Below are positions 2,999 to 24,760 of a stretch of 64,000 nucleotides of DNA, one piece after another. Both the position numbers and the translations under genes were made by a program. Location of the stretch: assembly GCF_021390715.1 (NCBI RefSeq), contig NZ_JAJGWT010000003.1:1-64000 (forward strand), read 5' to 3'. This stretch comes from Tenacibaculum piscium (lineage in GTDB: Bacteria > Bacteroidota > Bacteroidia > Flavobacteriales > Flavobacteriaceae). The first letter of the stretch is position 1, and each line of letters begins with the position of its first letter. The notes below the pieces were generated by a model. It had not been told where the DNA came from and made no database searches. It was given only the letters and a program-made list of their open reading frames with translations.

Positions 2999-3358
2999 GA
3001 TAAATTTATTTTTAAATTTAAAACGAAAATAAAATGACTATTTAACCTCTCTACTTAAAAGTTTCCGAACGCTACAATATTGTTTCCGAACAAATTTTCA
3101 ATCCTCTTAGAGAACCTAATATTATAATAATTGACACTTTTTTTTCATAGTTATTAGAGCTTGTTTTTTTACTCTTACTTACAAAGCCACCTTATCAAGT
3201 GCTAAAAAGTTTCTCGTAGCTTATGAATTGTAAAAACTAAAGGATAATAATTCATTTTCAGATTATCGTATTCGATTATGGGCATTTGCTATTCTTTTTA
3301 GTTTCCGAAAAATGATATAACAAGTATTTACATCTTTAAAAAATTGATTCTAAAATTA
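2999..3358. other. Intergenic region between surface protein and LytTR operon
   Basis: This 360-bp stretch has no convincing gene. It carries the direct-repeat element at 3061-3091 upstream of the surface-protein gene. A -7-like TATTTTCG lies on the minus strand at 3031-3024. A single additional half-site, GTTTCCGAAA, lies at 3301-3310 with no partner at 21 bp. The rest is AT-rich and without clear structure. Confidence 0.6.
3061..3091 (-). promoter_or_regulatory. LytTR-type direct-repeat operator, site A
   Basis: On the minus strand GTTCGGAAAC occurs twice, perfectly repeated with a 21-bp period and separated by 11 bases that include ATTGTAG. LytTR-domain regulators bind two direct half-sites about two helical turns apart, so the geometry fits. 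The site lies 62 bp upstream of the surface-protein start. It matches site B at 6635-6665 in 25 of 31 positions. Binding by the neighbouring LytTR regulator is inferred. Confidence 0.7.
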
Positions 3359-4096
3359 TTAATGCATCAATTTTTCGAAATTTTCTTTATAGGTTTTACC
3401 AACAGAAATTATTTTATCAGTAAAAGTAAGAAGTTGTTTTTCTTTTTTTGAATAGCTATTTATATGATTAATATTTACCATCCAAGAACGATGTACTCTT
3501 GTAAAAAAATCTTTATCACTTAATAAATTTTCATAATAATTTAATTTTTTAGCAACCATAAATTCCTTGCCATTTGTAGTATAAATTACGCTGTACATTC
3601 TATCTGCTTGAATACAAATAATGTCAATAATATTTACAATTACATAATCTGTTTTATAAGGTATCGCTATTATTGTAAGTTGTTTTTTATTTTGTTGTAA
3701 TAATTCAACTCTGGTATTTAATTGCTTATTTTGAATATTTATGGCTACTTTTTCAACAGCTTTTTGCAACAAATCAACCGCGATTGGTTTTAATAAATAA
3801 TCTATTGCGGTTACTTGAAATGCTTTAATAGCATAAGTATCGTAAGCGGTTACAAAAATTACGTGAAAGTTGATTTCATTAAATTCTTCTAATAATTGAA
3901 AACCATTTTTTTGAGGCATTTCAATATCTAAAAACACGATTTGAGGTTGGTATTTTTGTATTATTTGTACTGCATCATCAACATTAGAAGCTTCTGAAAT
4001 TACTTCTACTTGCTTACAAAAAGCACCTAGTAAATAGCGTAAATTTTCTCTTGCGTTAATCTCATCATCAACAAGTACGGCTTTTATTTTTCTCAT
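3359..4096 (-). CDS. LytTR-family response regulator
   Basis: A 245-residue two-component response regulator. Residues 1-120 are a CheY-like receiver with acidic DD at 10-11, the phospho-acceptor Asp57 in VFLDIEMP and a conserved Lys in YLLKPI. Residues about 140-245 are a LytTR DNA-binding domain (ITVDYI-like start, then FTRVHRSWMVNINHI and the SVGKTYKE end). It is the last gene of an operon with two LytS/YpdA-type kinases, 14 bp after the nearer one. By family it would bind paired direct repeats, and such repeats lie upstream of the adjacent surface-protein gene and of the operon itself. Confidence 0.93.
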   Translation of the reverse strand: MRKIKAVLVDDEINARENLRYLLGAFCKQVEVISEASNVDDAVQIIQKYQPQIVFLDIEMPQKNGFQLLEEFNEINFHVIFVTAYDTYAIKAFQVTAIDYLLKPIAVDLLQKAVEKVAINIQNKQLNTRVELLQQNKKQLTIIAIPYKTDYVIVNIIDIICIQADRMYSVIYTTNGKEFMVAKKLNYYENLLSDKDFFTRVHRSWMVNINHINSYSKKEKQLLTFTDKIISVGKTYKENFEKLMH

Positions 4097-4110
4097 TTTA
4101 TCATATATTT

Positions 4111-5334
4111 TTAATCTATATACGGTATTTTTAATATGACTTTAGTTCCTTCTTCAATTTTTACATATTTAAAACCAATATCTGTTTTATAATAGTCTTT
4201 TAATAGCAATAATCTATCTTGTATTGCTTTTGTTGAAAATGATTCTTCTTTATTATTTAAGGTATTTATTTCTATAGAAGCTTTAATTCCAATGCCATTA
4301 TCTACAATTTCACATTCAAAAACTTCTTTTTGAGAAAAAGAAATCGTTACTTTTTTTATTCCTGATGTTTTGTGTAACAAACCATGTTTTATAGAATTTT
4401 CAACAAAAGGCTGAATTATCATCGAAGGTATTTTAATGTCTTTAATATTTTGATATCCTATTAAAACATATTCAAAATCATCTCGAAAACGCAATTTTTC
4501 TAACTCTAAATATTTTGTTAATAAGGATAATTCCTCATCAAAATACACAAAACTTTTTTCACTCATATTTAAGTTTTCTCTAATTAGCGATGCAAATTTT
4601 GTTAGATAATTATAGGCTTCATGTTTGTTTCCTTTTAATACTAAATTTTGAATTGAATTCATCGCATTAAACATAAAATGCGGATTCATTTGTGCTTTTA
4701 ACGATTTTAACTGTAAATATGCTAATTCATTCTTTTTTTTCTCTTCTAATTGTTTGTAGGCTTCTTTTAACTTTACTTCATTTTTTTGATTTAATAATTG
4801 TGAATAGTTAAGTATCACATAAGATCCTATAAAAACAGCAAGTAATAGAATCGGATTTAACATATCAGAAGGATATATACTTGGTATTAATTTATAAGGA
4901 ATATAATATAAGAGCCAGCACAATATCATTATTGAGATTGTTATTTGCTTTTTATCAATTAAAATAAGAGCGACTAATGGATATATAAAATAAAAATTTT
5001 CCATCATTCGAGATGGTTCTATATAATTTGCAAAAATAAAAGTTACCGTTATAAGTACTATTATAAACAATACTCTAGCATAAATATATTTTCTATTTTT
5101 TTGCAATAGATAAACTGCAATAATTGCTAAAAACGAAAAAAAATGTACTACAATGCTTTTGTTCATTTTATTTGAAAAAAACGGATCAAAAAACATAAAA
5201 GTACAGATTAAAATTCCCCATGTTAAACAAAATACATTTAACAGTTTTATTTTTTTATGTTCGTTTTCATTATTGTTGTAAACCCCAATATTTACAACGA
5301 ATTTATATGCTTTTTTCAAAAAAAATAGTATCAT
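4111..5334 (-). CDS. Membrane sensor histidine kinase, LytS/YpdA type (intact)
   Basis: A 407-residue histidine kinase. Residues about 30-175 hold some six hydrophobic membrane segments. A coiled coil at about 180-212 (NQKNEVKLKEAYKQLEEKK) leads into a His_kinase domain with phospho-acceptor His219 in NPHFMFN. The ATPase part has an intact N-box (QPFVENSIKHG, Asn313) and G1 box (DNGIGI, 345-350). There is no extracellular sensor domain, so the signal is probably sensed in the membrane. It lies 10 bp after a paralogous kinase with the same layout and 14 bp before the LytTR regulator, presumably its partner. Confidence 0.92.
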   Translation of the reverse strand: MILFFLKKAYKFVVNIGVYNNNENEHKKIKLLNVFCLTWGILICTFMFFDPFFSNKMNKSIVVHFFSFLAIIAVYLLQKNRKYIYARVLFIIVLITVTFIFANYIEPSRMMENFYFIYPLVALILIDKKQITISIMILCWLLYYIPYKLIPSIYPSDMLNPILLLAVFIGSYVILNYSQLLNQKNEVKLKEAYKQLEEKKKNELAYLQLKSLKAQMNPHFMFNAMNSIQNLVLKGNKHEAYNYLTKFASLIRENLNMSEKSFVYFDEELSLLTKYLELEKLRFRDDFEYVLIGYQNIKDIKIPSMIIQPFVENSIKHGLLHKTSGIKKVTISFSQKEVFECEIVDNGIGIKASIEINTLNNKEESFSTKAIQDRLLLLKDYYKTDIGFKYVKIEEGTKVILKIPYID

Positions 5335-5344
5335 TTTATTTCAA

Positions 5345-6583
5345 TTATTTATACGACATTTTAAGTACTACTTTAGTTTTTAAATTTTCTTCGATGTATT
5401 TAAAGTGTATTTTTATATTATAAAAATCTTTTAATAAAGCGACTCTTTTTTCTATTATTGCTGTTAAAGATAGTTCTAAATTCATTTTATCTTTCTCTTT
5501 CATTTCAACGGATTTTGCAATTCCTATTCCGTTATCAATTATGGTACAAACTAGCATTTTGTTTTCATGATGAAACGTAATTTTTAACTCTCTCAATTCA
5601 TTTATTTGATGCAAAAGTCTGTATCGAATAGCTTCTTCAACAAAAGGCTGAATAATTTGTGATGGAATTTCAATATTTTTATTGTTTTCTAAATTTTCAA
5701 TAGTATAATTAAAACTATCGCCAAAACGCAATTTTTCAAGTTCTAAATATTTGTTTAAAATGACTAATTCAATATCTAAACTTGTAAAATTTTTATTGCT
5801 GATTTTTAAATTTTCACGCATTAAAACAGCATATCTTGTTAAATAATCATACGCATCTTCTTTATTACCTTTTAAAATTAAATTTTGAATTGCATTTAAA
5901 GTATTAAACATAAAATGCGGATTCATTTGTGCTTTTAATGTTTGTAATCTTAAAAGAGCCAGTTCATTTTCTTTTTGTTTTTCGAGTTTAGCGTAAGCTT
6001 TTTCTAATTTTATTTTACGTTTTCGTAGTTTCTTTTCTTGTTTTTTATTTAATTGTTCGGAATAGTTTAAAATAACAAAAGTTCCTAAAAAAATACAGAA
6101 TACCAATACGGGCAAAATCATATTTTTAGGATACATATTTAAAAAAAGATTCGGGATAAAATACAATCCGAAGCAAAGAAGTAAAAACAACATATTAATC
6201 CATTTTTTTTCAATGAATAAAATACCGACCAAAGGATATAGAAAATAAAAATTTTCAATCAACATTAAAGGTGTTGTAAAGTTGGCGAATATAAATGTGA
6301 TGGAAATTATAGCAATTATAAAAACAATTCGAGCTATATGATAATTTTGTAAAAATTGTAAATAAAAAATACCTGTGATAATAACATACGAAATTCCATG
6401 TAAAATCAAACTTCCATATAATTCTCTTTCAAAAATCAAATCAAAAATGGTGATAATGACAATCATTACCGACCAGGTAATACAAAAAGCGTTTAAGAGT
6501 CTTATTTTTTTAGCTTCAACCGATTTTTTTTGAGGAACACCTATATTTAATAAATAAGAGTATGTGTTTAAAATTTTATTCAT
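5345..6583 (-). CDS. Paralogous membrane histidine kinase with degenerate N-box
   Basis: A 412-residue protein that aligns end to end with the downstream kinase (shared NIGV near the start, LLNxFCxTW, ENFYFxYPLV, LKAQMNPHFMFN), so the pair is a tandem duplication. The acceptor His223 and G1 box DNGIGI are kept. In the N-box the usual ENxIKHG reads EEAIRYR at 316-322, so the Mg-binding Asn is Glu317 and the His and Gly are Tyr321 and Arg322. I infer weak or no kinase activity, perhaps a partner or modulator that can still receive or pass phosphate. First gene of the operon, 51 bp downstream of direct-repeat site B. Confidence 0.9.
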   Translation of the reverse strand: MNKILNTYSYLLNIGVPQKKSVEAKKIRLLNAFCITWSVMIVIITIFDLIFERELYGSLILHGISYVIITGIFYLQFLQNYHIARIVFIIAIISITFIFANFTTPLMLIENFYFLYPLVGILFIEKKWINMLFLLLCFGLYFIPNLFLNMYPKNMILPVLVFCIFLGTFVILNYSEQLNKKQEKKLRKRKIKLEKAYAKLEKQKENELALLRLQTLKAQMNPHFMFNTLNAIQNLILKGNKEDAYDYLTRYAVLMRENLKISNKNFTSLDIELVILNKYLELEKLRFGDSFNYTIENLENNKNIEIPSQIIQPFVEEAIRYRLLHQINELRELKITFHHENKMLVCTIIDNGIGIAKSVEMKEKDKMNLELSLTAIIEKRVALLKDFYNIKIHFKYIEENLKTKVVLKMSYK

Positions 6584-6634
6584 GAAGCTATTTTTTTTAA
6601 ATATCGTTTTTTTATTTCAAAACAATTCTATTTA

Positions 6635-6665
6635 CTTTACGAATACTACAATCTAGTTTCCGAAC
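6635..6665 (-). promoter_or_regulatory. LytTR-type direct-repeat operator, site B
   Basis: On the minus strand GTTCGGAAAC is followed 21 bp later by the imperfect copy ATTCGTAAAG, with ATTGTAG in the spacer. Twenty-five of 31 positions agree with site A at 3061-3091. It lies 51 bp upstream of the first kinase gene and suggests autoregulation of the two-component operon. Confidence 0.65.
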
Positions 6666-15955: not shown

Positions 15956-16639
15956 ATGAAGAATTTTCTATCAAATATTAAAATTGAAATCCCTGTAGGA
16001 ATCTATATTAAAGATCCTGAAACATCCGATTTAGGAAAAAGAATTATAGAAAATAGTATCAAATTAATCGAAGAAATCGGTTTTGAAAGCTTCAATTTTA
16101 AAAAATTAGGCACTTTAATCGGCTCGAACGAAAGTTCTATTTATAGATATTTCGAAAGCAAACACAAATTACTCGTCTATTTAACTTCGTGGTATTGGGG
16201 ATGGATACAATATCAATTAGTTATAGAAACGTATAGCATTCATAATCCTGAAGAAAAATTAATAAAAGCCATTCAAATACTCACCAAAACAACCGAACAA
16301 GACAATAATTTTACCCATATTAATGAAGTTTTATTAAACTCAATTGTGATTAATGAAAACTCCAAATCATATTCGACAAAAGAAGTTGATGCCGAAAATA
16401 AAGAAGGTTTTTTTAAATTATATAAAGAAGTTGTAAAACGCTTAGCTGCTATAATAATCAATTATAATAGCACTTATAAACACCCACTAACCCTAGCAAG
16501 TACAGTGATTGAAGGCGCATTGCATCAACAATTTATAAAACAACATTTTAAATCGCTGACCAATTGTAATGACACTATTTCTCCCACTTCTTTTTTTATT
16601 GATGTAACGCTTAATATCCTTTCAAATAATGGAAAATAA
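15956..16639 (+). CDS. TetR/AcrR-family transcriptional regulator
   Basis: A 227-residue regulator. The N-terminal helix-turn-helix is at residues about 25-70 (LGKRIIENSIKLIEEIGFESF, then SNESSIYRYFESKHKLLVYL), as in TetR proteins. The C-terminal part is an all-helical ligand/dimer domain. A -7 element TATATTTG lies at 15930-15937. Its stop overlaps the start of the ABC exporter gene by 11 bp, so the regulator is the first gene of the export operon and most likely controls it. Confidence 0.88.
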   Translation: MKNFLSNIKIEIPVGIYIKDPETSDLGKRIIENSIKLIEEIGFESFNFKKLGTLIGSNESSIYRYFESKHKLLVYLTSWYWGWIQYQLVIETYSIHNPEEKLIKAIQILTKTTEQDNNFTHINEVLLNSIVINENSKSYSTKEVDAENKEGFFKLYKEVVKRLAAIIINYNSTYKHPLTLASTVIEGALHQQFIKQHFKSLTNCNDTISPTSFFIDVTLNILSNNGK

Positions 16640-18290
16640 AACCTTAACTCCTTGGCAACGGTTTTTAGGGCTCTTAACTTTAGAGAAAAAAGATATTTTA
16701 CAAATATCTTACTACGCTGTTTTTGAAGGAATTGTAGCTTTATCGCTTCCTTTAGGGATACAAGCAATTATCAATTTACTACAAGCGGCTGAAATTTCGG
16801 CTTCTTGGGTAGTGCTTGTAATACTCGTTACGGGTGGTGTCGCTTTTAGTGGTGTTTTAAAATTCATGCAAATTAGAATTATTGAAACCATACAACAACG
16901 AATTTTTACAAGAGCTTCCTTAGAACTTAGTTATCGATTTCCTAAAATAAAAATGAGCGAATTACGAAATTATTATCCGCCTGAATTAGCCAATCGTTTT
17001 TTTGATACGCTAACGATTCAAAAAGGGATTTCAAAAATTTTAATTGATGTTCCATCGGCTTTTTTACAGATAATTTTTGCACTAGTACTACTCTCTTTTT
17101 ATCATACCTTTTTTATTTTATTCGGATTTTTATTACTCTTATTGATTTATCTTGTATTTAAATATACTGCTAAAATTGGCTTAGAAACAAGCTTAAATGA
17201 ATCTAAAAATAAGTATAAAGTAGCGCATTGGTTGCAAGAAATCGCAAGAACAATTATCAGTTTTAAAGTAGCAGGAAAAACAACACTTGCCCTAGATAAA
17301 AGCGATGATTTGGTTAGTGATTATTTAAAATCAAGAGACAGTCATTTTAAAATATTAATCATTCAATATATTCAAATGATTAGTTTTAAAGTGATTGTTA
17401 CCGCTGGTTTATTATTGATGGGCGGTTTTTTAGTCTTAAATCAAAAAATGAATATTGGACAATTTGTTGCCTCTGAAATAATTATTTTATTGATAATAAG
17501 TTCTGTGGAAAAATTAATTTTAGGCTTAGAATCCTTTTATGATGTGCTTACTTCTATCGAAAAATTAGGGCAAGTTATCGATAAACCCATCGAGAATCAA
17601 CAAGGAAGTACTGTCAGCGACACCAAACCTTTCAAAATTGAAATTCAAAATATTTCATACACCATTTTTGAGAAAGAAAAACCCATCTTAAAAGATATTT
17701 CATTCCATATCGAACCCAATGATAGAATCTTAATTCAAGGAGAAAGTGGCGCTGGAAAATCGAGCTTAATACAGCTTATCGCAGGAATTACAACCCCTAC
17801 CGCTGGAAATATTTTCGTGAATGATTTATCCATAAAAAGCCTACAAATTAATAATTATAGAGCCTATTTAGGAATGTCATTATCCGAAGAAAATCCGTTT
17901 GAAGGAAGCATCCGAGAAAATGTAACTTTTGGAGATACCGCAATTTCAGATGATGAAATTTATACTGTTTTCGAAATTGTTGGATTAACCGATTTTTTAA
18001 AATATCAAGAAAATGGCTTAGAAACCCAACTAAAACCTGAAGGAAAACATATTGGCTATACCATTTCTAAAAAAATTATTCTAGCAAGAGCGATTATCAA
18101 AAAACCAAAACTTTTAATTTTAGAAGATCCTTTAGATCAATTAGAAAAAAAAGAAGCCAATAAAATTATCGATTTTATTACAAATCCTTCCCAAAAATGG
18201 AGCTTAATTATTGTAAGCAGTAACGACAAATGGGAAGAAAAATGTACTAAAAAAATTACACTGCATAAAGGTAAAATCATTAATAAATAA
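16629..18290 (+). CDS. ABC exporter (membrane plus ATPase domains) with degenerate ATPase motifs
   Basis: A 553-residue half-transporter. Residues about 25-300 are an exporter transmembrane domain; residues about 335-553 are the ATPase. Walker A is intact (GESGAGKS, 371-378). The rest is atypical: no Q-loop Gln (MSLSEENPFEGS), LSGGQ replaced by IGYTI near 475, Walker B reads LLILED rather than LLLDE, and the H-loop His is replaced by Ser530 (IIVSSND). ARAIIKKPKLLILE still aligns normally. There is no peptidase domain. With HlyD and TolC genes following it looks like a type I-like export system; the substrate is unknown and none is encoded nearby. Confidence 0.85.
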   Translation: MENKTLTPWQRFLGLLTLEKKDILQISYYAVFEGIVALSLPLGIQAIINLLQAAEISASWVVLVILVTGGVAFSGVLKFMQIRIIETIQQRIFTRASLELSYRFPKIKMSELRNYYPPELANRFFDTLTIQKGISKILIDVPSAFLQIIFALVLLSFYHTFFILFGFLLLLLIYLVFKYTAKIGLETSLNESKNKYKVAHWLQEIARTIISFKVAGKTTLALDKSDDLVSDYLKSRDSHFKILIIQYIQMISFKVIVTAGLLLMGGFLVLNQKMNIGQFVASEIIILLIISSVEKLILGLESFYDVLTSIEKLGQVIDKPIENQQGSTVSDTKPFKIEIQNISYTIFEKEKPILKDISFHIEPNDRILIQGESGAGKSSLIQLIAGITTPTAGNIFVNDLSIKSLQINNYRAYLGMSLSEENPFEGSIRENVTFGDTAISDDEIYTVFEIVGLTDFLKYQENGLETQLKPEGKHIGYTISKKIILARAIIKKPKLLILEDPLDQLEKKEANKIIDFITNPSQKWSLIIVSSNDKWEEKCTKKITLHKGKIINK

Positions 18291-18303
18291 AGCAACAGAG
18301 ATA

Positions 18304-19659
18304 ATGTTACATATATCAAATAATACTGTTTCTAATCAAATTGATTTGAGTAATTTTAAATCAGGAAAAAAAATATTTAAAAAAGAACATCACAAATTAT
18401 TTAGAAAGTTTTTACTATTCTTTTTTATAGTACTATTTATCACGCTATTTTTACCTTGGACTCAAAATGTTTCTAGTACAGGTAATGTTACGACGTTAAA
18501 ACCGAATCAGCGTCCGCAAACCTTGCAATCTCAAATTCCTGGAAGAATTGAACAGTGGTTTGTGCAAGAAGGTGATTTTGTAAAAAAAGGCGATACTATT
18601 TTAAGAATATCCGAAGTAAAAAGTGATTATTTCGATGCAAAACTTGCTGAAAGAACAGGAAATCAATTAAATTCTAAAAGTCTTTCTGGAAAATCATATC
18701 AAAATAAAATAAGTGCTTTAAAAAGGCAAATTTCAGCGATAAGAAACGAACAAAAATTAAAATCGGAACAAGCAAAAAACAAATTACAACAAGCTTACTT
18801 AAAAGTTAAAACCGATAGTATTGACTTAGAAACCGTTATTTTAAAGCAAAAAATAGCAAAAATTCAATATGAAAGAACTTTTACCCTACAACAAGAAGGT
18901 TTAAAAGCCACTAAAGATGTGGAAGAAAAAAGTGCAAAACTTCAAGAATTTTCAGCTAAAGTTATTTCTCAAAAAAATAAACTGTTAACTTCTAAAAATA
19001 ATAGTATCAATGCACAATTAGCTATTTCGGGAATAATCGCGACTTATACCGATAAATTATCCAAAGCACAAAGTAGTTTATATAGTGCTGAATCTGGCGC
19101 GTATGAAACTGAAGTACAAGTATCAAAACTACAAACAAATTTAGCTAATTATAACAAACGAAGTTCTTTATTATACATTACCGCTCCGCTTGATGGGTAT
19201 ATAAATAAAGCAATAAAATCGGGAATTGGAGAAACTTTTAAAGAAGGTGAACAGTTAATAAACATTATGCCTGCTGTATACGATTTGGCAGTAGAAATGT
19301 ATATAAAACCCATCGATTTACCGTTGATACATACTCACGAAAAAGTACGTGTTCAGTTTGATGGTTGGCCAGCAATTGTTTTTAGTGGCTGGCCTAATAT
19401 GTCATCAGGAACTTATGAAGCTAAAATTATTACAGTCGAAAATTTTATTAGCAGTAATGGAAAATATAGAGCCTTGATTGTTCCTGATAACGATGAACAA
19501 CCATGGCCAAAAGCCATTAGAGTTGGTTCGGGAGCAAAAACAATTGCACTGTTAGAAAATGTGCCTATTTGGTATGAATTATGGCGACAAATTAATAGTT
19601 TTCCACCTAATTTCTATCAGCCAAACACAAAAGAAACCGATTCTAAGAAAAAGAAATAA
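18304..19659 (+). CDS. HlyD-family periplasmic adaptor (membrane fusion protein)
   Basis: A 451-residue adaptor. A cytoplasmic N-terminus of about 35 residues is followed by one membrane segment (LLFFFIVLFITLFLPW). Then come a lipoyl half (IPGRIEQWFVQEGDFVKKGDTIL), a long coiled coil at about 130-290, the second lipoyl half (LLYITAPLDGYINKAIKSGIGE) and beta-barrel parts. It would bridge the inner-membrane ABC exporter and the outer-membrane TolC protein. It begins 13 bp after the ABC gene and its stop overlaps the next start as TAATG. Confidence 0.92.
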   Translation: MLHISNNTVSNQIDLSNFKSGKKIFKKEHHKLFRKFLLFFFIVLFITLFLPWTQNVSSTGNVTTLKPNQRPQTLQSQIPGRIEQWFVQEGDFVKKGDTILRISEVKSDYFDAKLAERTGNQLNSKSLSGKSYQNKISALKRQISAIRNEQKLKSEQAKNKLQQAYLKVKTDSIDLETVILKQKIAKIQYERTFTLQQEGLKATKDVEEKSAKLQEFSAKVISQKNKLLTSKNNSINAQLAISGIIATYTDKLSKAQSSLYSAESGAYETEVQVSKLQTNLANYNKRSSLLYITAPLDGYINKAIKSGIGETFKEGEQLINIMPAVYDLAVEMYIKPIDLPLIHTHEKVRVQFDGWPAIVFSGWPNMSSGTYEAKIITVENFISSNGKYRALIVPDNDEQPWPKAIRVGSGAKTIALLENVPIWYELWRQINSFPPNFYQPNTKETDSKKKK

Positions 19660-21074
19660 TGAAAAATATATCCTTTTTATATCTATTTATAAGTTTCGTT
19701 TCCTTTTCTCAAAACATGCCTAACAACACTATTTCTTTAGAGGAAAGTCTAGGATATGTTAAAAAATATCATCCTATTATAAAGCAGGCAAAACTTATTG
19801 TTAATACAAATCAAGCAAAATTATTAAAAGCCAGAGGTGGTTTTGATCCTAAAATTGAAGTTGATTACAGCAATAAAAACTTTAAAAATACCGAGTATTA
19901 TAAAACATTAGTTTCATCTTTTAAAATTCCTACTTGGTATGGAATTGAGCTAAAAGCTAGTTATGAAAATAATTCAGGAAAGTATTTAAATCCTCAATAT
20001 AAAACACCTAAAAATGGCTTATATAATGTAGGTGTTTCTGTTTCGTTGGCTAAAAATTTATTTATCAATAAAAGAATGGCTACCTTAAAAAAAGCCAAAA
20101 TTTACACCAAACAAAGTAAATTAGAACAACAATTATTAGTTAATACTATTTTGTTTGATGCTATTTCGGCATACTTAAATTGGACACAATATTATCAACA
20201 ATATAGCGTGTTTCAAAATTATTATGCCAATGCAACGATAAGACACCATAATGTTATTAAAAATTTTAAAGCAGGTGATAAAGCCGCTGTAGATACTTTA
20301 GAAACAAGTATCAACTTAGAAAATAGAAAATTAGATTTAGAAAAAGCACGTATTAAACACTTAAAATCAAAAGTAGCTTTTTCGAATTATTTGTGGATTA
20401 ATAATAATATTCCAATGGAATTAAAAAACAACATGATTCCTGATATCGCAACATTTTCTAAGATTGATAAATTATTAAAAATAGTCGAAAATGATTTCAA
20501 TAAAATAGATGAAAATGATTTAGAACAACATCCGAAGTTAAAATTATTAGCCTTAAAAAAGAATAATTTACAGATAAATAAACGATTAAAAACAAATAAT
20601 TTATTGCCAAAAATAGATTTTCAGTATAATTTATTATCATCAGAAGTACATAATTTTGATGATTTTAGTACTTTTAACGTTTCAAGTTACAAAAACTCGT
20701 TGCAAGTTAGTGTGCCGTTATTTTTAAGAAAAGCTAGAGGAGATTTAAAAATTGCAAAAATAAAATTACAAGATTTAGATTTTGAAATTTCAGCAACAAA
20801 AATAATTTTGCAAAATAAGATTAAAGCGACCAAACAAGAAATTGTATCGTATCAAAAACAACACAATATCTTAAAAAACCTGGTAAATAATTATAAAACA
20901 ATCGTTAAAAGCGAAGAGCGAAAATTTTCGTTAGGTGAAAGCTCCTTATTTTTAATTAATTACAGAGAAGTTAAATTAATTGAAACGAATTTAAAAGCAA
21001 TCAAAAATGAATATGAATACGCTAAAACAAAAAGTAAGCTACTTAAATTATTAGGGAAATTAACGAATATCTAA
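19659..21074 (+). CDS. TolC-family outer-membrane efflux protein
   Basis: A 471-residue protein with a signal peptide (residues 1-18, ending SFSQ). It has two repeated long helical hairpins with the typical start ISLEESLGYVKKYHPIIKQAK and the second-half QLKLLALKKNNLQINKRL-like segment, LPKIDFQYNL and SVPLFLRKARGDLKIAK. It would form the outer-membrane channel of the export system. Its start overlaps the HlyD stop by one base (translational coupling), and a strong terminator follows. Confidence 0.92.
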   Translation: MKNISFLYLFISFVSFSQNMPNNTISLEESLGYVKKYHPIIKQAKLIVNTNQAKLLKARGGFDPKIEVDYSNKNFKNTEYYKTLVSSFKIPTWYGIELKASYENNSGKYLNPQYKTPKNGLYNVGVSVSLAKNLFINKRMATLKKAKIYTKQSKLEQQLLVNTILFDAISAYLNWTQYYQQYSVFQNYYANATIRHHNVIKNFKAGDKAAVDTLETSINLENRKLDLEKARIKHLKSKVAFSNYLWINNNIPMELKNNMIPDIATFSKIDKLLKIVENDFNKIDENDLEQHPKLKLLALKKNNLQINKRLKTNNLLPKIDFQYNLLSSEVHNFDDFSTFNVSSYKNSLQVSVPLFLRKARGDLKIAKIKLQDLDFEISATKIILQNKIKATKQEIVSYQKQHNILKNLVNNYKTIVKSEERKFSLGESSLFLINYREVKLIETNLKAIKNEYEYAKTKSKLLKLLGKLTNI

Positions 21075-23307: not shown

Positions 23308-24702
23308 TCACAAACCAGCAACCTCATCTTCTTTTAAAATTTCGTTCGTTTCTTCTTGTACTTTTTTAAGAAGATTACGTAAATTATCTGTTTGTTTAAA
23401 ATCAGCATCTGCTACCAAATTTAACAAGGCTTTATCTTGGGCGCGTCCTTTTTTCATGGCTACTGCATACGGAATATCGTCTTTAAAAGTAACCATCGAA
23501 TATTTCGAAAAATATTCCTCAGGAAATTCCTTTTCCAACGCCATTTCCAATATTCTTTTCTCTTTAAATAACGGATTCGCTACATGATTTTTCATTTCCT
23601 GAAAATTATCAAGCGCCAAATCGGCAATAGCATCGGTATCTTGTTTTCTTGCTTTTTCGTAAGTTTTAAACACCGTTTCCCAATCGCCTAAATCTTCTTC
23701 TAAAACAGCATCAAAAATGGTAATATCTTCAAAAGAAGCATTCATTCCTTGCCCGTAAAAGGGTACAATTGCGTGTGCTGCATCTCCTAATAAAATCGTT
23801 TTATTTTGATAATGCCAAGGAGAACATTTTACCGTTCCCAATGCTCCTGTCGGATTATTTAAAAATTCTTCTTTAATATTCGGAATTAATTTTAACGCAT
23901 CAGGAAATTGTGTTTCAAAAAAGGCAGTTATTTTTTCTTCGGATATTAAATTATTGAAATTATATTTTCCTTCATTATAACTTAAAAACAGCGTAACTGT
24001 AAAACTGCCATCCATATTTGGCAATGCAATTAACATATATGCCCCACGAGGCCAAATATGCAAATGCGCATTACTTATTTGATGATTTCCTTGTTTATCC
24101 GCAGGAATTTCTAACTCTTTATATCCGTGTGATAAATAATTTTGTGAATAACTAAACAGAAATTTATGCGCTAAATAATAGCTTTTACGTAAAACAGAAC
24201 CCGCGCCATCAGTACCAAAAATCACCTCAGCATTTACCGAAAATTCTTCTTTTGTATGATAATCTTTAAAGTTTGCTATTGTATTTTCTATATCTACAGA
24301 TGTACATTTTTTATTAAAATGAATGCTTACATTTTCGTGTTTTTCGGCTTCTGTTAATAAAATAGCGTTTAAATCGCCACGAGAAATGGAGTTGATACAC
24401 TCATTATCTCTACCCGAATAATTTGATGAAAATGTATTTCCTTCAATATCATGAATCAATCTTCCGTACATAGGAATACAAATTTCACGAGCTTTTTCGG
24501 CAACACCTGCTAAACGCAAGGCTTTAAATCCACGGTCTGATAATGCTAAGTTTATAGAACGACCCGCTGAAATATCAACAGTTCTTAAATCTGGTCTACT
24601 TTCATAAACAGCAACCTTAAACCCTCTTTGTGCCAATCGTAAAGCTAATAAGCTTCCGCATAAACCTGCACCTATTATTAATATATTGTCTTTTTTATTC
24701 AT
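23308..24702 (-). CDS. kmo: Kynurenine 3-monooxygenase
   Basis: A 464-residue FAD-dependent monooxygenase that hydroxylates L-kynurenine with NADPH and oxygen. It has the dinucleotide fold ILIIGAGLCGSLLALRLAQRG at the N-terminus and the second FAD motif LLGDAAHAIVPFYGQGMNASFED. ISAGRSINLALSDRG is typical of KMO. I start at ATG 24702 (MNKKDNILIIG); an in-frame ATG at 24735 would add 11 residues encoded partly by a palindromic repeat and is unlikely. Downstream of kynU in the same operon. Confidence 0.95.
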   Translation of the reverse strand: MNKKDNILIIGAGLCGSLLALRLAQRGFKVAVYESRPDLRTVDISAGRSINLALSDRGFKALRLAGVAEKAREICIPMYGRLIHDIEGNTFSSNYSGRDNECINSISRGDLNAILLTEAEKHENVSIHFNKKCTSVDIENTIANFKDYHTKEEFSVNAEVIFGTDGAGSVLRKSYYLAHKFLFSYSQNYLSHGYKELEIPADKQGNHQISNAHLHIWPRGAYMLIALPNMDGSFTVTLFLSYNEGKYNFNNLISEEKITAFFETQFPDALKLIPNIKEEFLNNPTGALGTVKCSPWHYQNKTILLGDAAHAIVPFYGQGMNASFEDITIFDAVLEEDLGDWETVFKTYEKARKQDTDAIADLALDNFQEMKNHVANPLFKEKRILEMALEKEFPEEYFSKYSMVTFKDDIPYAVAMKKGRAQDKALLNLVADADFKQTDNLRNLLKKVQEETNEILKEDEVAGL

Positions 24703-24729
24703 TTTTATGCTTCTTTTTATTTTCCGCTT

Positions 24730-24760
24730 CGTCATTCTGAATTTATTTCAGAATCGCATC
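24730..24760 (+). repeat. REP-like palindromic repeat, copy 1
   Basis: The unit CGTCATTCTGAATTTATTTC, continuing AGAATCGCATC, contains the palindrome ATTCTGAA-TTTA-TTCAGAAT-like core. Two variants with compensating changes occur at 51856-51889 and 51911-51941. It lies between kynU and kmo. Confidence 0.65.

Follow-up and report, generated by a model that had tools for sequence, protein, structure and literature searches.

Conserved paired direct repeats as probable operators linking a LytTR two-component operon to a surface-protein gene in Tenacibaculum piscium

Operators of LytTR regulators have been described as repeats of 9–11 nt separated by spacers of 11–13 nt (PMC4847170). The systems YpdA/YpdB and BtsS/BtsR (YehU/YehT) of Escherichia coli combine a His_kinase protein with a receiver-LytTR regulator and a direct-repeat operator, and the same combination was found in the stretch of DNA analysed here, the first 64,000 nucleotides of contig NZ_JAJGWT010000003.1 of Tenacibaculum piscium (hereafter the window). 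Two similar elements, termed operators 1 and 2 (Table 1), stand in the window before a large surface-protein gene and before an operon of two histidine kinases and a LytTR response regulator, respectively. They are most probably operators of this regulator (3359-4096) and would control both the surface-protein gene and the regulator's own operon, a reading to which we assign a probability of roughly 0.84. The operator geometry as such is already known for LytTR regulators; what the present analysis adds is a regulon of unusual clarity and, possibly, an exchange slot for surface-protein genes.

The YpdB operator, as read from the oligonucleotide given in PMC4847170, is arranged as 10-11-10 and has the same 21-bp period as the elements in the window. 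Operator 1, also 10-11-10, lies within the repeat and spacer lengths given above, so the likeness in period and layout to known LytTR regulators claimed in a preliminary description of the window was borne out. The half-site of YpdB, GGCATTTCAT, is unrelated in sequence to that of the window, and the E. coli targets of YpdB and BtsR named in PMC5552118 are transporter-type genes. Direct repeats just upstream of the promoter, together with autoregulation, are also known from LytTR regulatory systems (LRS), among them the Bacteroides operons of PMC6193735 (Table 3); in these LytTR operons, which differ in type from that of the window, 11-bp repeats with 11-bp spacing precede a TATCTTTG box (PMC6193735). 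The LRS differ from the window system in the repeat sequence, in the distance to the box (11+4+19 = 34 bp compared with 29 bp) and in the partner of the LytTR protein, which is an inhibitory membrane protein in the LRS and kinases in the window system (PMC6193735). The window regulator carries a receiver domain and its partners are His_kinase proteins, which places the system outside the LRS. LytTR regulators of the LRS are not known to carry a receiver domain. In Gram-positive bacteria, the LytTR regulons for plantaricin and other bacteriocins have one regulator serving several promoters, which share a single repeat and a single promoter arrangement; the group described here differs in that its targets are mostly of surface type and its promoters are of Bacteroidota type. 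In the partly available literature that connects LytTR proteins with Tenacibaculum, with Polaribacter, with type IX secretion or with binding motifs in Flavobacteriaceae, no report of an operator for such a regulator was found.

Read on the minus strand, operator 1 consists of two perfect half-sites with a 21-bp period (GTTCGGAAAC-AATATTGTAGC-GTTCGGAAAC), and operator 2 (GTTCGGAAAC-TAGATTGTAGT-ATTCGTAAAG) carries three mismatches in its second half-site. The paired half-sites, their period and the imperfect second copy reported in the preliminary description were thereby confirmed, as were the distances to the two start codons (Table 1), and a recount gave the same agreement between the two elements (25 of 31 positions). 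The exact pair occurs once in the window and was matched in none of 100 dinucleotide shuffles. In the whole genome (2,645,744 bases in 37 contigs) the pair was found at these two places only when up to 3 mismatches in 20 positions were allowed, with no match to the reversed pattern, which makes the pair remarkable. A single half-site is unremarkable alone: with at most one mismatch it matched 6 times in the window (2.73 expected), and 7 of 100 shuffles reached this number.

Table 1 Features of the window discussed in the text
Feature	Position	Strand	Remark
Operator 1 (putative), GTTCGGAAAC-N11-GTTCGGAAAC	3061..3091	-	62 bp before surface-protein ATG (2998); conserved in relatives
Operator 2 (putative), imperfect copy	6635..6665	-	51 bp before first kinase ATG (6583)
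Putative -7 box TATTTTCG	3024..3031	-	one mismatch to TAnnTTTG; lies 29 bp downstream of operator 1
Weak -7-like box GATATTTA	6598..6605	-	29 bp after operator 2
Lone half-site TTTCGGAAAC	3301..3310	-	48 bp past regulator stop codon, between regulator and operator 1
LytTR response regulator (receiver and LytTR DNA-binding domains)	3359..4096	-	presumed binder of both operators
LytS/YehU-type histidine kinase	4111..5334	-	PF06580; intact N-box FVENSIKHG
Paralogous histidine kinase, first operon gene	5345..6583	-	PF06580; degenerate N-box FVEEAIRYR
Large secreted-type protein gene, at least 999 aa	2..2998	-	runs off contig start

The elements were compared with related bacteria, whose loci and genomes are denoted below by L and G numbers. 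The first comparison covered 19 loci (203.6 kb, including L037 and L040, which overlap on one contig). Pairs of TTCGGAAA with at most one mismatch each were found there 27 times at period 21 on the operon strand; the other periods from 12 to 40 gave one pair at 13 and one at 33, and the opposite strand none at 21. The comparison was then extended to 39 loci (583 kb) in which the regulator has an orthologue, namely the window, L195-L224, L039 and L041-L047; loci from the same genomes (L034-L038, L040, L048 and L005-L011) were left out, and so was the carrier G340, whose regulator lies at a contig edge. On the operon strand this set holds 56 half-site pairs at period 21 and no more than 4 at any other period from 10 to 60; the opposite strand has none at period 21. 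Among 63 distant LytTR loci (1.42 Mb, both strands) no period-21 pair was found. In relatives carrying the regulator, the site is conserved in period and in strand. The half-site is short and its single copies are near chance in the window, so the elements might be taken for chance repeats, or for a mobile repeat or recombination site without any role in transcription. The contrast of 56 pairs with at most 4 by period, their restriction to one strand, the fixed promoter distance described below and the result of the shuffles make this barely conceivable.

At a looser threshold, 87 sense pairs were obtained at period 21, compared with 1–12 at the other periods from 17 to 26. Twelve of the 87 sites were set aside because a simple caller of open reading frames (ORFs) placed them inside an ORF, leaving 75 intergenic sites; some of those set aside (for example L199 7778 and L209 7745) look real and lie under spurious ORFs. 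In the matrix of 70 distinct intergenic sites, a unit made up of ATTCGGAAA and a subsequent A-rich tract is present in two copies with a 21-bp period; its core columns are biased by the search, and the remaining columns are free of such bias. The mid-spacer columns 16–19 hold 0.01–0.07 bits. The spacer motif ATTGTAG, emphasised in the preliminary description, is therefore not conserved in relatives and probably plays no part in recognition.

Beyond the second half-site, the matrix contains a T-rich block which was not selected for and which ends in TTTG, with T as its first base in 67 of 70 sites. Among 45 distinct sites at non-kinase targets, 30 have the first base of this TTTG at an offset of 33 bp from the second half-site (the next-best offset accounts for 2), and 24 are followed by the start codon after 59–66 bp. 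The TTTG corresponds to the end of TAnnTTTG, which has been reported as the flavobacterial sigma-A -7 box at -12 to -5 (PMC9723704), and the box after operator 1 stands at the same spacing as the TTTG of the relatives. By arithmetic from this placement, the operator would span about -72 to -42 relative to the transcription start, with a leader of about 20 nt. We propose that the kinase pair, of which one member is apparently active and the other a probable pseudokinase, activates the regulator, presumably by phosphorylation in response to a signal. The regulator would then bind as two subunits on one face of the DNA, at two 10-bp half-sites a 21-bp period apart. At operator 1 it would sit 29 bp upstream of the putative Bacteroidota sigma-A -7 box and recruit RNA polymerase to the LamG surface gene, which would be transcribed with the short leader given above.

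The distribution of the sites was then related to that of the regulator. In the genus group, 32 of 166 genomes carry an orthologue (E<=1e-60), and in the family group (199 genomes, nearly all of different genera) it was found only in the window's own genome, absence being judged from at most 16 candidates per genome in the former group and at most 13 in the latter; the distribution is thus patchy. Among the named relatives are Tenacibaculum ovolyticum (68% identity), T. haliotis, Polaribacter porphyrae, Aquimarina, Wenyingzhuangia and Winogradskyella. A search pattern combining both half-sites with TTTG (at most one mismatch) was matched in 28 of the 32 carriers (62 matches; reversed control 17) and in 26 of the 134 non-carriers of the genus group (29 matches), a co-occurrence with a Fisher p of 7e-13. 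When 58 genomes were scanned under stricter conditions, the 8 carriers among them yielded 18 sites (control 3) and the remaining 50 genomes yielded 13 (control 33). Across the 199 family genomes, a loose pattern with at most 2 mismatches was matched in 106 and its control columns look alike, as would be expected because only the window's genome has the orthologue there.

These data also bear on whether the sites belong to another transcription factor and are merely co-inherited with the operon. Candidates for such a factor exist, since 6 further proteins of the window's genome match the regulator at E<=0.001, and matching proteins are numerous in related genomes (at least 47 in one), counts which may include receiver-only matches. 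Site matches follow the presence of the regulator across the 166 genomes, and 30 of 41 regulators have a pair (at most 4 mismatches in 16) 3–68 bp behind their gene. Furthermore, the 10-11-10 direct-repeat geometry is that of LytTR operators, and another group of LytTR regulators seems to have a half-site of its own, TTCAGAAA, beside its own genes. Ownership by another factor is accordingly considered very improbable. Conservation, strand, period, fixed promoter spacing and co-occurrence together strongly support the view that the surface-protein gene is tied to the regulator operon through LytTR operator sites.

Of the 75 intergenic sites, 19 precede kinase genes, one precedes a regulator gene and 55 precede other genes or none. 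By a crude rule, a signal-peptide-like or lipoprotein-like gene follows 37 of 45 distinct non-kinase sites, compared with 135 of 349 same-strand genes in the same loci. A domain scan (E up to 0.01) covered 39 of 52 listed targets after removal of near-duplicates, very short ORFs and some others. It detected the T9SS type A sorting domain in 13, choice-of-anchor Q in 12, Laminin_G_3 in 8, leucine-rich repeats in 6 and cadherin in 4, and three targets were propeller sensor kinases. Of 11 distal operator-like sites inspected in carriers, 7 (L225, L231, L235, L238, L114, L129 and L140) precede a secreted- or lipoprotein-type gene, at 83–133 bp from the site start. Judged by their sequences, the sites recur in dozens of related bacteria before many different, often unrelated surface proteins. 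In T. haliotis, an array of small secreted or lipoprotein genes with four operators was seen (L199 7778-10500, the same region as L035), two of which are identical across half-sites and spacer.

A self-regulated switch for a cell-surface adhesin had also been proposed in the preliminary description; of this claim self-regulation is supported, and bistability and an adhesin role are conjectural. In the 39 loci, 34 kinase genes have an upstream gap, and 17 of these are preceded by a period-21 site, compared with 3 matches over six control periods; none of 9 regulator genes is so preceded. The fixed box spacing of the surface targets is absent: none of the 19 kinase-gene sites has TTTG at offset 33, only 3 have TTTA or TTTG there, and 18 stand at varied distances of 30–93 bp from the start codon. 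Feedback is therefore not universal, half of these kinase genes being without a site, and control of the operon may follow another mode than that of the surface gene. Autoregulation with another promoter arrangement appears likely, and at operator 2 the regulator would feed back on the kinase-regulator operon through a weaker site. The sign of this feedback could be negative if the regulator represses at least its own operon, and the varied distances and missing box spacing are such as blocking sites may show. The non-kinase sites, by contrast, keep one rigid distance upstream of the -7 box, as activator sites do, and LytTR repeats upstream of their own operons are described as positive feedback sites in PMC6193735. 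Repression is thus regarded as unlikely.

In addition to the kinase-gene sites, several observations speak against the assignment of the elements as operators of this regulator. The box after operator 1 has one mismatch, and operator 2 itself has three. The looser threshold also gave 10 antisense pairs at period 21. The Fisher p value overstates independence, since carriers share ancestry and themselves supplied the loci on which the pattern was built, and by the reversed control of 17 roughly a quarter of the 62 matches in carriers would be due to chance. One of the two pattern matches in the window's genome falls inside an ORF (23308-24735). Four of the 32 carriers (G262, G299, G300 and G039) are without a pattern match; in G262 and G039 a degenerate site does stand behind the regulator. 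Behind 5 of the 41 regulators (G299, G281, G002, G011 and G282) no pair with fewer than 5 mismatches was found within about 420 bp. Among the distal sites, L138 has its secreted- or lipoprotein-type gene 337 bp away, and no same-strand ORF of more than 80 codons was found downstream of L123, L139 and L141. The operator-like sites of L139 (G003) and L141 (G002) apparently lie at the same place, perhaps before a small gene or RNA.

The gene which follows the regulator varies among the relatives. A same-strand gene lies within 600 bp behind 36 of the 41 regulators, and these genes form nine clusters without a blastp link at 1e-6, the largest being LamG-type proteins (17, including the window), followed by a 105-aa secreted protein and by cadherin/NHL lipoproteins with 5 members each. 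On a tree of 40 of the 41 regulators, the five multi-member labels need 9 changes (minimum 4, shuffled mean 14.0); the type of downstream gene is clustered on the regulator tree but has repeatedly changed. For example, G353 and G286 have very similar regulators (a starred 100/100 clade), with a LamG gene and a small gene behind them, respectively. The window regulator, on a long branch, groups with T. ovolyticum-type genomes, in which the small gene is next (unstarred, 81/93). The lone half-site of the window (Table 1) may be a remnant of the regulator-proximal operator of the relatives, because it occupies the stretch behind the regulator gene in which an operator is present for 30 of 41 regulators. 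No remnant of the 105-aa gene was found in 3051-3360 by tblastn with the small targets, which returned only a 23-residue match of another protein (E 0.73). A tandem duplication was seen in L211 (G353), where the kinases, regulator and LamG gene are followed by another regulator and a gene for a small secreted protein.

Searched for at the same period and box distance, the half-site TTCAGAAA was matched 21 times in the 166 genomes and 3 times by the reversed control. At least 7 of these matches adjoin another LytTR regulator (G020, two in G042, G043, G050, G285 and G303; for G285 and G303 the adjacency comes from a look at 14 loci). In L120 and L122, a kinase, another LytTR regulator (35–36% identical) and a secreted-type gene frame the site. 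In an unguided search of 45 other LytTR loci, which accepted every repeat of 10 bp at a set period ahead of TTTG, period 21 was raised at each offset tried and not at 29 alone, seemingly owing to tandem repeats and coding sequence. Generality is therefore claimed only for TTCAGAAA, whose group is weakly indicated to follow the same 21-bp grammar. Loci in which this group seems to use TTCAGAAA beside its own regulator genes are L120, L122, L017/L250, L253, L254, L256 and L265. Three TTCAGAAA pairs in L251 (G274), 1.2 kb apart, were rejected as probably not operators, since they run into a terminator-like hairpin and T-run.

It is tempting to combine both sets of observations. The regulator, its 3' operator and the promoter may form an exchange slot in which unrelated surface genes are swapped under constant control, and LytTR regulators of the phylum may own different half-sites on a common 21-bp/29-bp grammar; we put this forward tentatively, at somewhat less than an even chance. 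If such a slot exists, the surface repertoire would change while control is kept, and surface-protein genes might be replaced by this route and yet stay regulated. For one regulator group, half-site, period, promoter distance and regulon can be read, and surface-protein regulons would become predictable from sequence and accessible to direct testing if the TTCAGAAA group fits the same grammar.

The protein assignments at the locus rest on domain matches. The regulator has Response_reg (PF00072, 75.1 bits) and LytTR (PF04397, 53.9 bits) domains, both above the cut-off, and it lies below the equivalog cut-offs of BtsR (NF008677, 143.2 vs 246 bits) and LytR (NF010684, 121.9 vs 375). The two kinases score 78 bits each for PF06580, are 47% identical to each other and both have the phospho-acceptor motif NPHF. 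The ATP-binding domain of the kinase encoded at 5345-6583 has FVEEAIRYR in place of the N-box FVENSIKHG of its partner, and this kinase is a probable pseudokinase. The same degenerate form, EEAIR[CY]R, is present in kinases of L195, L196, L199 and L203 (the pattern overlooked the N-box in a few kinases), so the pseudokinase looks old and retained. The surface protein has a signal-peptide-like start, a choice-of-anchor Q domain and a weak fn3 match, and a Pfam scan of residues 20-260 alone gave Laminin_G_3 at 34.6 bits (cut-off 27.6). It is 38% identical over 824 aligned columns to the protein of the gene adjoining the orthologous regulator in L040.

A propeller sensor kinase (Reg_prop, Y_Y_Y) of about 960 aa lies upstream of the operon in L196, L199, L203, L206-L208, L210, L219 and others, and is itself sometimes preceded by an operator. 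At this place, where many relatives have the propeller sensor kinase, the window has dnaK. Elsewhere in the window (15956-21074), judged from the translations, a TetR-like gene is followed in a row by ABC transporter, membrane-fusion and outer-membrane-factor-like genes.

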